Part shown: in pieces, positions 22,501 through 27,472 of the stretch
Position numbering within the stretch: the first letter of the stretch is position 1
Layout of the letters: each line of letters begins with the position of its first letter
From: Aspergillus flavus
Taxonomy: Eukaryota > Ascomycota > Eurotiomycetes > Eurotiales > Aspergillaceae
DNA length: 64,000 bases
Assembly (NCBI RefSeq): GCF_009017415.1
Contig: NC_092407.1
Span: 2,542,001 to 2,606,000 of the forward strand
Direction: 5' to 3'
The notes under the pieces: generated by a model
What the model was told of the DNA's origin: nothing
Seen by the model: only the letters and a program-made list of their open reading frames with translations
The model's database searches: none
Position numbers and translations under genes: made by a program

Positions 22501-24025
22501 ATGGCCCCAGATAAGAAGGATAAGAAGCGCAAGGGTATGTTGCCCTTCCATTTCGCTAAGACATCTCAGGTCGGCTACCGTACCACTTACTGACAATGTC
22601 ACAGCTGCCGCCGCTACTGCCGCCGCCGATTCTCCCGCAAAGAAGACCAAGAAGGTTGAGGCCAAGCCCACCGAATCCACAAATGCAAGCCCCAAGCCTA
22701 TTCTGAAGAAGAACAAGGAAAATGATGCGGAGAAGCCTGCTGCAAAGTTGAAGGTCAATGGCGAACCGACAAGGCAGGTCAAGCCTCGCAAGCGCGCTGC
22801 CGATTTCCTCAGCGACAACGAGGACAGCGAGTCGGAGGACGCCCCTAAGACCAAGATCGAGACAGAGAAGAAGTTGAGCAACAAGAAAACTAAGAAGGCG
22901 GATGGTACAGCAGCCCCCGCTCCCAAGGAGAACACTACCAAGGCCAAAGCAAGCACCAAGGCCAAGAAACCAGAGCCTGTCGCAGAAGAGTCTGACGATG
23001 GGGAGATGGATGATGAAGAGTCTGCCGCATCTGGCGCTAGCGCAAGTGAAGATGAGGAAGAGGATGACCGGACAGCCGCGCTCATTAGGGGCTTCGAGAG
23101 CAGCGGGGATGAGGACGAGTCCGGGGATGAAGGATTTAACCCCGACCAACCCGTTCCTAAGATCCCTGATTCTAAAAAGGCCAAGAGAAAGATCTTGAAG
23201 AAACAGAAGGAAAACAAACAAGAGGCAGAGGAGCCAGGTACTGTATACGTCGGGTGAGTGTTCCGGGCCTTACTCGTTTATTGATGAATTAGGTCTAACC
23301 AGCCACTTTACAGACGTATTCCGCACGGTTTCTACGAACATCAGATGAAGGCTTACTTCTCGCAATTCGGCGAAATCTCTCGTCTGCGTCTTTCTCGGAA
23401 TCGCATTACCGGCCGCTCGAAGCATTACGCTTTCATTGAGTTCACCTCCACCTCTGTGGCGAAGATTGTCGCTGGGACCATGGATAACTATCTGATGTAT
23501 GGTCATATCCTGAAGTGCAAATACGTGCCCCAGGAACAATTGCATCCAGAGCTCTGGAAGGGCGCCAATAGACGGTTTAAGCGGACCCCCTGGAACCGAA
23601 TTGAGAAGAAGCGACTCGACAAGGCCAAAACAAGAGAGCAGTGGTCGGAGCGCATCGATCGCGAACAGAAGAGACGACTCGCCAAGGCTGAGAAACTCAA
23701 GGCTCTGGGCTACGAGCTCGAATTACCTCAGTTGAAGAGTGTCGACGAGGTCCCTATTCAACAGGAAGAGAATAAGACGATTGAGGCGTCGGAGACAGTA
23801 TTCGACGAACCTGTCAAGGCTATTGAAGCGCCAAAGGAGGAGAAAAAGGTTGCTGATGATACCCCAAAGAAAGCTAAGAAGGACAAGAAGAAGGGCGCAC
23901 AATCAACCGACCAGGAGACACCAAAGGAGCAACCCAAGAAGGAGATCCCTGCAGCAACTGCTTCGCCTGCCACCAAGGCTGGAGCAAAGGCTAAGAAGGC
24001 GAAAAAGACCAAGGCCAAGGCGTAA
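22501..24025 (+). CDS. nop15: Ribosome-biogenesis RRM protein Nop15
   Basis: Three exons, 22501-22534, 22605-23253 and 23314-24025, encode 464 aa. The N-terminal half is a highly charged Lys/Glu/Ala-rich region with acidic blocks (SDDGEMDDEE, SEDEEEDD). The second intron sits just inside a single RRM: TVYVGRIPHGFYEHQMKAYF (RNP2), then RSKHYAFIEF (RNP1). After it come WKGANRRFKRTPWNRIEKKRLD and a Lys-rich tail, the arrangement of Nop15 and human NIFK. Nop15 binds pre-60S particles near ITS2 and is needed for 27S pre-rRNA processing in the nucleolus. A strongly repetitive codon pattern produces long antisense frames that are artefacts. The RNase MRP RNA gene begins 356 bp downstream. Confidence 0.92.
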
Positions 24026-24381
24026 ATTCCAGTTTAAAATTCTCTGTAACTTTCATAGCATAGATTATGTTTTCTCCATTGCCTTGGGACAAAAAGCGGC
24101 TGTATGTTTTATATTCCTAGTCTAAGTCTTAAGTCACATTAGTTGAAAATTCCCATTATCGAAAGAAAAATGGTGATATCTTCCAGCAGCGCTTCTTTCT
24201 CTCTCTTACAGTCCGACACACAAATTCCGGCACAATGTAAAGGACATGATTGGCTGTTCAGGATACGTAACACGTGATTACACTAGCCCACAGAGGCTTA
24301 GTGGAACCACTACCATCAGCCGAAAGACTAGAAAAAAAGCGCCAGCGGAACTTTTCGCTCTCGAATTCTTCCTCTCTCTCC

Positions 24382-24748
24382 AACTTCTCGCTCAAAGGAT
24401 CGCATTCAAAGCTCACACACAGAATATTCCTAACGGGATATTCTCCTCTTCTCAAGAGAGGTAATGGCTTTGGGAGAAAGTCCCCGGACATCCTGACCTT
24501 CTTATCGGTCAGGCACTGCGGAAACGCGCCGCCATAGAAGCAATTCGATAGCGGCTGACTGCCCTATTCCCTCCCAGTGTCCTGTTTGTATCCGACGCCT
24601 TCAAGGTGGAAACAATGGTGGTATAACTGGGTGCTGGAGAGGGGTTTATCTGGGTTGCTATTCGTCGTGTTTGGATAGTCATGCGATTGCTTGGTTCCCT
24701 TGCAGGAACTGGGTAACTCAATGGGGCTCATTCTTGAGGCGAGAAGTT
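24382..24748 (+). ncRNA. RNase MRP RNA
   Basis: About 367 nt containing both signature elements of MRP RNA in order. CR-I is GAAAGUCCCCGGA at 24476-24488, identical to the human RMRP core. CR-V is GGGGCUCAUUCU at 24723-24734, as at the 3' end of human RMRP. The ends pair to form P1: AACUUCUCGCUCAA (24382-24395) with UUGAGGCGAGAAGUU (24734-24748), 14 pairs with one bulged G. Other helices are CCUGACC/GGUCAGG (24492-24498 with 24507-24513), CCUCU/AGAGG just before CR-I, and GAAUAUUCC/GGGAUAUUC, placed where the P3 domain belongs. A TTTT follows at 24755, consistent with RNA polymerase III. The RNA cleaves pre-rRNA at site A3 with the RNase MRP proteins. The ends are set by P1 and could differ by a few bases. 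Confidence 0.92.
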
Positions 24749-24754
24749 CACTTC

Positions 24755-24758
24755 TTTT
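24755..24758 (+). terminator. RNA polymerase III-type T-run terminator of RNase MRP RNA
   Basis: TTTT six bases after the 3' strand of helix P1, followed by ATCTT. Its placement fits a pol III stop. A run of four T is short but sufficient in many eukaryotes. Confidence 0.5.
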
Positions 24759-25095
24759 ATCTTCCAGAGTCTGTAGCTTATGGTAAAGCGGTGCATCGTG
24801 TTGGCTTCACACGGAGTCGAGCACAGAAGCCCTGTCGCAGGGGCCGGACTCCCTTGTTTACATCTTGTTTCGCTGTTTCTTTCACTGTTCGCATGATGAT
24901 ATACCAATCATAGAGTCAAGCCCTGAAATCCCTACTACGGTAAGGGGTTGTTGACGATAAACGATTGTTTTCATATCTGAAGAACATCATTCTTGTACAC
25001 TATTAGAGAGATATCTTCTTATTCTAACAGAATAAACTCTTGGTTTTCTTTTACATTCTCATGCAACCCATAATATGTAACATGGCAACCGTCAA

Positions 25096-25890
25096 TCATT
25101 GCGTCTTTTGAGCCGTAGCAACCGGAGTAGGTCGTGCTGTTTGCAGAAACATCGAAGTGACCATCTCCGCCGTAACCGAAACCGCCGTCGCGCACACGCT
25201 GTTCCAAACATGAACGCTCACCGATCCCATAGGAGCTCGGGGGAATGACAGAATCCATTGCACGTAGTAAGGGATCCACGCTTCAGGTAACGCAAAAACG
25301 GGCGTCTTCGAGTACCAGAATTGAAGGAAGATTTTCAACCCGTTCGTGCTAAGCCACCGGGCGATCTTGACGCTCCAATCGAAGGAGCTCTTCTGTGCCG
25401 TGAGAGTTTTATCTGTAGGTGTGGTATATTGAATTAGCCTCAGCACTAGTTATGGAGGTGTGGCTCAAAGAGAATGTAAACAAGAGGGCTGGAGGCACGT
25501 CACATACTCAGCTGTTCGTATTCATCCATGGTTTTATCATGTCGACGCCTAAGCTTAGCCCACTTTGCGAATTCATCCTGAGAGCTGGTGTTGTTCATGT
25601 CTCGTTTCAGCTCGAGGGCTTCGCGCTTCAACCGGCTCTGTTCCCGCGCATTCTTCGAAGTTGATGTGGGTAATTTCAGGTAGAGGAGCCATAGCTAAAG
25701 GAGAAAAGCCTAGTCAGTCAAGGAACAGCTGATCAAGGTGGCAGTTAAAGTGGTTTGGACCGTGTGACTGGGTGTAGCTTGATCAGGAAACGTTAGGACG
25801 TACCAGGCTGTCAATCGTGCTTGCGCCAGCAGTATTCACCACATAAATGGCAACATGAAGAAAAAAGATCGTCCAGATCAAGGATAGCAT
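25096..25890 (-). CDS. get1: Golgi-to-ER traffic protein GET1 (WRB/CHD5 family)
   Basis: Three exons, 25804-25890, 25508-25694 and 25096-25412, give 196 aa. Residues 1-22 form the first membrane segment ([17 protein letters not shown]). A basic coiled coil follows ([20 protein letters not shown], then [16 protein letters not shown]), the cytosolic arm that contacts the Get3 ATPase. The third exon holds [16 protein letters not shown] and two more membrane segments around [15 protein letters not shown] and [16 protein letters not shown]. With Get2, Get1 forms the ER receptor that inserts tail-anchored proteins. The starting ATG is at the extreme N-terminus of the family. The gene shares a 442-bp upstream region with the plus-strand prenyltransferase-like gene. 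Confidence 0.93.
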
Positions 25891-26332: not shown

Positions 26333-27472
26333 ATGTCCGCCTCAGACAATGCGTTCCAAGAACTCGCCCGGATCTTTTCGACCAGAAATAACCGCATTCT
26401 TGAGATCGAGATTCTCCCGCCAGCTCTTGGTCCCCTGCTCCAAGACGAATGCTCTGTAGGTATAACAAAGAAATACCTGGTTCAGTCGTTTGTGGTTGCT
26501 AGACGTATATTCTTTGAGAAGTCGAGGTCCAACTTCGAATGTGGATCTCCACGCGCGATACTTCGGAACGAGAATGAGAGCGTAACGCACGGCGCTTCGG
26601 ACGCGATCCTCGAGGACCTTCTAGTCTCAACAGAAATAATCTTGTTATTCGACTGCGAGCATATTACAGCATGCAACTGGAGACGCGGACGGCTGGACGC
26701 CCTCAACAGACACCATGATTTTTCCTCCGACGATCCGGGGCCGCTTATCCAAGCTCTAGAAAATGAGCTCACCCTGATGACAACTTACCTTTGTTCGCCC
26801 TTGCACCGGCATACAAAATCCCCGACGTTATGGCAACATCGATTATGGGTGCTAGCTCGGTTACTCGAAATACGCGAGGTGGGAGCGAGACGAGCAAACT
26901 TCGTCAGCCCGTTCGAAGTAACAAACCAACAACAGAAGAGTAATGTCGACTGGCTAAAATCTGAGCTAGCTGTTGTCCATCGGGCCGGAGAACTACACCC
27001 ACGGAACTATTATGCTTTCAACTACATGAGACAAGTGCTCGGCGTCCTTTCCGATACGACAAAAGCCCGGCAAGGTCCTTCTGCGTTGGCCGAGTCAATC
27101 ATTGATTTGGCGCTGCCTTGGTGCTTGGCCCACCCTTCAGATGTATCCGGGTGGATGTTTATGCTCTATCTCCTGGAAGTTGTTCCGAAAGGAGATCTTC
27201 ATCCTAATGTTGTTAAGAAGGTGGTCGGCTACGCTTTAGATGTCGGGTGGGAAGGCGAGAGCCTCTGGACTTTTATAGACCTGTCTGTTCAATCGCTTGG
27301 TCTGGAGGAAACGGTCAGAAATACGCTGCAGATGATTCCGGGGACCTCCTATACTACTATTTCCACGGTTCAAGATGAATCGACAAGGAATACAGCTCTG
27401 CCGGCGCGGTCTTGGAAATCTTGGCTGACGATGGCGAGGAAATACTGGGATAGCTGCAATCAAGTTGCCTAA
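26333..27472 (+). CDS. Protein prenyltransferase alpha-subunit-repeat protein (PTAR1-like)
   Basis: A single exon of 379 aa. PPTA-type helical repeats (PF01239) are visible as the W-x-x-R/H signatures: HITACNWRRGRLDAL (about 110-124), SPTLWQHRLWVLARL (about 162-176) and RNYYAFNYMRQVLGVL (about 225-240), with ELAVVHRAGELHPRN before the last. Repeats are fewer and more diverged than in the farnesyl- or geranylgeranyl-transferase alpha subunits. The overall look is that of PTAR1, the alpha subunit of GGTase-III, which double-prenylates the SNARE Ykt6. That assignment is inferred. A geranylgeranyltransferase-II alpha relative is the alternative. It is divergent from get1. Confidence 0.72.
   Translation: MSASDNAFQELARIFSTRNNRILEIEILPPALGPLLQDECSVGITKKYLVQSFVVARRIFFEKSRSNFECGSPRAILRNENESVTHGASDAILEDLLVSTEIILLFDCEHITACNWRRGRLDALNRHHDFSSDDPGPLIQALENELTLMTTYLCSPLHRHTKSPTLWQHRLWVLARLLEIREVGARRANFVSPFEVTNQQQKSNVDWLKSELAVVHRAGELHPRNYYAFNYMRQVLGVLSDTTKARQGPSALAESIIDLALPWCLAHPSDVSGWMFMLYLLEVVPKGDLHPNVVKKVVGYALDVGWEGESLWTFIDLSVQSLGLEETVRNTLQMIPGTSYTTISTVQDESTRNTALPARSWKSWLTMARKYWDSCNQVA

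Follow-up and report, generated by a model that had tools for sequence, protein, structure and literature searches.

An RNase MRP RNA gene of Aspergillus flavus with a probable snR66-like box C/D snoRNA downstream on the same strand

The window considered here is a stretch of 64,000 nucleotides of Aspergillus flavus DNA, and all coordinates are positions within it. At 24382-24748 on the + strand lies what is almost certainly an ordinary RNase MRP RNA gene. RNase MRP cuts ribosomal RNA precursors, and MRP RNA is the RNA core of that enzyme. Upstream of the gene, a coding sequence for an RRM protein (RRM_1 match) ends at 24025 on the + strand, while two exons with CHD5/GET1 matches in Pfam are located downstream on the minus strand. 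The initial annotation had named these flanking genes NOP15 and GET1; the CHD5/GET1 exons bear out the second name, and the RRM_1 match is consistent with the first, the domain alone having been tested. On the far side of the MRP RNA gene is a probable snR66-like box C/D snoRNA. The features of both RNAs are as follows:

24382-24748 (+), RNase MRP RNA gene of ~367 nt, closed by P1 (RF00030; ends placed from P1)
24382-24395 (+), 5′ strand of P1, 14 of 14 pairs with the 3′ strand
24398-24403 (+), 5′ strand of P2, GAUCGC, pairing with GCGAUU at 24683-24688 (Rfam structure line)
24407-24472 (+), P3 domain, 24407-24412 pairing with 24467-24472 (Rfam structure line, sequence)
24476-24488 (+), CR-I, GAAAGTCCCCGGA (RF00030 match, word search)
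24487-24489 (+), 5′ strand of P5, GAC, three pairs with GUC at 24664-24666
24518-24527 (+), P8 hairpin, GCG-GAAA-CGC, with the GARAR element in truncated form
24677-24682 (+), CR-IV, AGUCAU, six nucleotides, ending where the P2 strand GCGAUU starts
24690-24713 (+), P19 hairpin (Rfam structure line, minimum free energy fold, sequence)
24723-24734 (+), CR-V, GGGGCTCATTCT, pairing with CR-I to form P4 (RF00030 match, word search)
24734-24748 (+), 3′ strand of P1 (Rfam P1, pair count)
24755-24758 (+), TTTT, a possible 3′ end signal, six bases past P1
24886-24986 (+), probable snR66-like box C/D snoRNA (weak RF00477 match, boxes, terminal stem)

Four frames that begin with ATG and encode at least 50 amino acids overlap 24382-24748, on both strands. 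No Pfam match at E 0.001 was obtained for the four to five short frames across the interval, in agreement with the earlier expectation that coding frames called here would be false genes.

Also in this part of the window, positions 26333-27472 (+) encode a single-frame protein with the protein prenyltransferase alpha repeat (PF01239). It occurs across Aspergillus and Penicillium and is seemingly fast-evolving. Among the best 120 of its 290 matches, identity is 100% to one unnamed entry, 77–82% to entries from A. pseudocaelatus, A. bombycis, A. pseudonomiae, A. bertholletiae, and A. parasiticus, which we take to be the flavus group, and 43–64% to other named Aspergillus species. These matches agree with an Aspergillus source belonging to that group.

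Assignment of the gene rests on the covariance model of the family. The RF00030 match covers 24385-24744 (+); its score of 101.4 bits is twice the curated Rfam cut-off of 50, and its E-value is 3.2e-27 for the 64-kb window. Its alignment spans model positions 1–266 of 266 with a mean accuracy of 0.68, and it is the sole Rfam match at gathering thresholds in the window. A permissive scan of 24000-25200 (E ≤10) likewise retained MRP as the clan member at the locus. In the whole assembly (37,736,778 bases in 8 contigs), one RF00030 match was listed at E ≤0.001, 25 of the 421 candidates from the first look having been scored, while the control search gave a match in one of 14 prokaryotic genomes (Thermotoga), which fell below the cut-off. 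The locus has the family's domain 1 architecture and is the single copy listed, and the full-length match upholds the identity that the initial annotation had proposed. No title on this gene was found in the literature on Aspergillus MRP RNA, as searched among mostly non-subscription journals. The locus may, presumably, already stand in Rfam or in a 2005 survey by Piccinelli that might list fungal MRP RNAs.

The quality of the RF00030 alignment is uneven. Domain 1 is strong, while toward the middle of the RNA, in domain 2, posterior marks are low and pairs are broken. The poor alignment of domain 2 is to be expected, since this domain is described as variable in the MRP RNAs of fungi (PMC5033589).

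Individual elements of domain 1 can be followed at the level of single bases. The CR-I and CR-V words are each unique in the + strand of the window, the strand scanned for them, and their pairing as P4 was read by eye from both strands. Their presence and positions are as first annotated, with a measured spacing of 234 bases in place of 235. The 14 pairs claimed for P1 were also borne out, in two runs (24382-24391 with 24739-24748, 10 of 10; 24392-24395 with 24734-24737, 4 of 4) that are separated by one bulged G at 24738. P2 has a longer register in which 8 of 9 pairs are formed, and the P3 domain contains an inner hairpin near 24421-24444. The P5 strands are assigned by our own reading of the sequence. 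A 17-base word of CR-I was found as an exact copy in two viral contigs of IMG/VR, but neither stretch gave an MRP match at gathering score, and the shared word is put down to chance. Each of these two viral stretches contains one tRNA.

Some of these features carry little weight on their own. Perfect 10-bp arms that enclose 350–380 nt occur twice in the window, P1 being one of the two, so P1 alone is weak evidence. The same is true of the TTTT beyond it, since runs of at least four T occur at 4.3 per kb on the + strand. The decisive test is the covariance match.

Folding of 24381-24750 gave a z-score of -4.6, and none of 100 dinucleotide shuffles equalled its stability. The minimum free energy structure contains the ten outer pairs of P1 plus a U-G, lacks the four inner pairs, and pairs the CR-V end otherwise, and its core departs from the family structure; the program used cannot draw the P4 pseudoknot. 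Because of the lost inner P1 pairs and the re-paired CR-V end, the fold is taken to support the stability of the RNA and not each of its helices.

The second RNA element begins 137 nt downstream of the MRP P1, on the same strand, and is probably a snR66-like box C/D snoRNA, judging from its boxes, its terminal stem, and its position. It has a C box (ATGATGA, 24893-24899), a D′ box (CTGA, 24923-24926), a variant C′ box (TGACGAT, 24952-24958), and a D box (CTGA, 24977-24980), enclosed by a terminal stem of TGTTC at 24886-24890 with GAACA at 24982-24986. The snR66 model (RF00477) matches 24881-24944, but its score of 27.9 bits does not reach the cut-off of 65; E is 0.06 in the scan of 24000-25200. 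This match covers the 5′ half only, ending at 24944 and thus short of box D. In the genome search it was the single RF00477 match at E ≤10 (E 0.445; 61 of 2712 candidates scored), and 10 of the 14 prokaryotic control genomes also gave matches at that threshold. Since controls match too, and since only the 5′ half is covered, the score alone does not convince. Other points favour the snR66 reading: the segment in common with the model is box C plus the D′ guide, the Neurospora homologue is an intergenic RNA of similar length that also has a D′ guide, and SNR66 sits beside NME1 in S. cerevisiae. Position adds to it: the chance that the best match of a genome falls within ~150 nt downstream of the MRP RNA and on its strand was estimated by hand to be of the order of a few per million placements. 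In yeast, snR66 guides methylation of Um2417 in 25S rRNA (PMC8307265). A presumed 15-base target word for the Um2417 region has no exact occurrence in the A. flavus assembly.

Seven matches besides MRP, snR66 included, were returned by the permissive scan of 24000-25200. Weak matches to snR56, snR87, and Afu_294 lie over the snR66-like element or over its start and could reflect its C/D boxes, while those to ToxI, mir-9465, and ceN61 (E ≤10) were set aside as chance.

In the spacer between the two RNAs, 24767-24851 (+) shows by eye a seven-pair outer stem, a D-arm-like hairpin, and a tRNA-like left half. A reading of this segment as a tRNA was rejected, as ARAGORN found no tRNA in the window, nor, at normal stringency with introns allowed, in the window or in 24001-25300, and as the spacer is no more stable than its shuffles. 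At a lowered threshold, the program gave six tRNA-like matches in 24001-25300, which are taken as chance.

With regard to transcription, both polymerases have precedents. Yeast NME1 has been reported as a Pol II gene and human RMRP as a Pol III gene (PMC7277114), and the MRP RNA genes of animals are described as Pol III genes (PMC4287351). The A. flavus locus was scanned with consensus words for A boxes, B boxes, and TATA. Even with 2 mismatches allowed, 24026-24900 contains no B box. Every A-box-like site in 24026-24760 has 1 or 2 mismatches, and 24026-24400 has no exact TATA but TATA-like sites with one mismatch, the nearest at 24329. The T4 noted earlier just after P1 is present, but with neither a B box nor an exact TATA in the regions scanned it counts only as a possible Pol III stop.

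The same observations bear on how the MRP RNA and its snR66-like neighbour may be produced. One possibility, to which we give rather less than even weight, is that Pol II transcribes both into a single RNA, which is then cut apart, and that the MRP RNA is not an independent Pol III gene. The shared strand and the 137-nt spacing are in keeping with such a transcript, as is the lack of a B box and an exact TATA, though the A-box-like sites with one mismatch point the other way. Yeast provides further parallels, in that NME1 and SNR66 are listed one after the other on the W strand (PMC9731477), with NME1 placed upstream of SNR66 by the systematic numbering, and in that yeast snR66 is a known Rnt1p substrate (PMC4334505); the reported Pol II transcription of NME1 is a third, offset by the Pol III genes of animals. 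The TTTT six bases past P1 is harder to accommodate, given that a T tract right after the yeast MRP RNA is described as stopping both Pol II and Pol III (PMC12129344), which argues for separate ends. Folding of the spacer (24759-24870) likewise shows no excess (z -0.13, with 79 of 200 shuffles as stable), and the identity of the snoRNA is itself not certain.

In literature that takes in few of the subscription journals, and that was available in part, linkage of MRP RNA and snR66 was found for S. cerevisiae only and is not described across fungi. Such linkage may be the sole point at this locus that a specialist would not expect. A tentative and on balance doubtful proposal is that the one-strand pair is an old ascomycete arrangement, present in Aspergillus and Saccharomyces, and maybe expressed as a single Pol II precursor that is cut by RNase III and exonucleases. 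If this were so, a joint precursor would couple the supply of an enzyme for pre-rRNA processing to that of a guide for rRNA methylation. If the tandem of two ribosome-biogenesis RNAs is conserved, it would offer a testable case of co-transcription, and if ascomycetes in general show the linkage, gene order could be used to find MRP RNA in fungi in which its sequence has drifted.

Other readings of 24382-24748 itself are far less probable. It is most improbable that the locus encodes the nuclear RNase P RNA, although RNase MRP and RNase P RNAs have a common C-domain architecture with CR-I, CR-IV, and CR-V (PMC13184271). Features described as specific to MRP RNA are a six-nucleotide CR-IV with A1, G2, and A7, where RNase P RNA has eight nucleotides, a three-pair P5 adjoining CR-I, and a GARAR pentaloop on P8 (PMC13184271). 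In A. flavus, CR-IV is AGUCAU, of six nucleotides and not eight, and directly precedes the P2 strand, and a three-pair P5 (GAC/GUC) is found directly at CR-I. The purine-only loop of P8 is the four-letter GAAA on a GCG/CGC stem, as opposed to the five-letter GARAR; truncation of GARAR to GARA is already in print (PMC3737539), so the loop represents a known variation and not a new one. A genome search for the sister RNA with the RNase P model (RF00009) gave no match (15 of 2383 candidates scored), a result that might be thought to leave the present locus as the RNase P RNA gene but that is uninformative, since none of the control genomes gave a match either. Exclusion of RNase P RNA therefore rests on the motifs and on the clan comparison, which retains RF00030 at the locus with 101.4 bits. 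A decayed or duplicated MRP pseudogene is equally implausible, as no point in its favour was found, the match is the sole one listed for RF00030 in the assembly, CR-I, CR-IV, CR-V, P1, and P2 are all intact, and yeast cannot do without its MRP RNA (PMC7277114). With the locus of this RNA now placed, no protein call is warranted across 24382-24748.

As an RNase MRP RNA, the product of this gene would be an RNA of ~367 nt that is closed by P1, with CR-I and CR-V pairing as P4. P4 and CR-IV would together form the catalytic pseudoknot that is common to RNase P RNA, P3 and P19 would complete domain 1, and domain 2 would be made up of the middle of the RNA, where conservation is lower. Together with Pop1, Rmp1, and other shared proteins, the RNA would be expected to cut the pre-rRNA in ITS1. 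We infer that the gene is transcribed with ends at or near those given, that its RNA is assembled with protein, and that the enzyme cleaves ITS1 (A3). In favour of the MRP identity, the genome also has gene matches to POP1_N (PF06978, best E 1.2e-46) and to RMP1 (PF20945, best E 5.9e-12), the latter being the family of an MRP protein.

Comparison with known systems places the gene well within its family. With RF00030 members such as S. cerevisiae NME1 and human RMRP, it shares P1, P2, P3, P4 with CR-I and CR-V, and P19, along with the six-nucleotide CR-IV and the three-pair P5, and its length of ~367 nt is similar to the 340 nt of yeast MRP RNA (PMC12129344). It differs from the family in the GAAA of its P8 loop, which is a truncated GARAR, and from the model in the inserts and deletions of its domain 2. 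RNase P RNA (RF00009) has the catalytic core in common with it (PMC13184271), but is set apart by a CR-IV of eight nucleotides in place of six, and by the P5 that adjoins CR-I here. The putative snoRNA resembles snR66 (RF00477) in box C and in the stretch of the D′ guide, CAUAGAGUCAAGC, although it scores below the Rfam cut-off and the 3′ end of the model does not fall at box D. In Neurospora, the snR66 homologue CD2 is an intergenic RNA of 99 nt with a D′ guide (PMC2780460), as compared with ~101 nt for the A. flavus element. Finally, the relation of the MRP RNA gene to its snR66-like neighbour, in adjacency and in strand, is the same as that of NME1 to SNR66 in S. cerevisiae.
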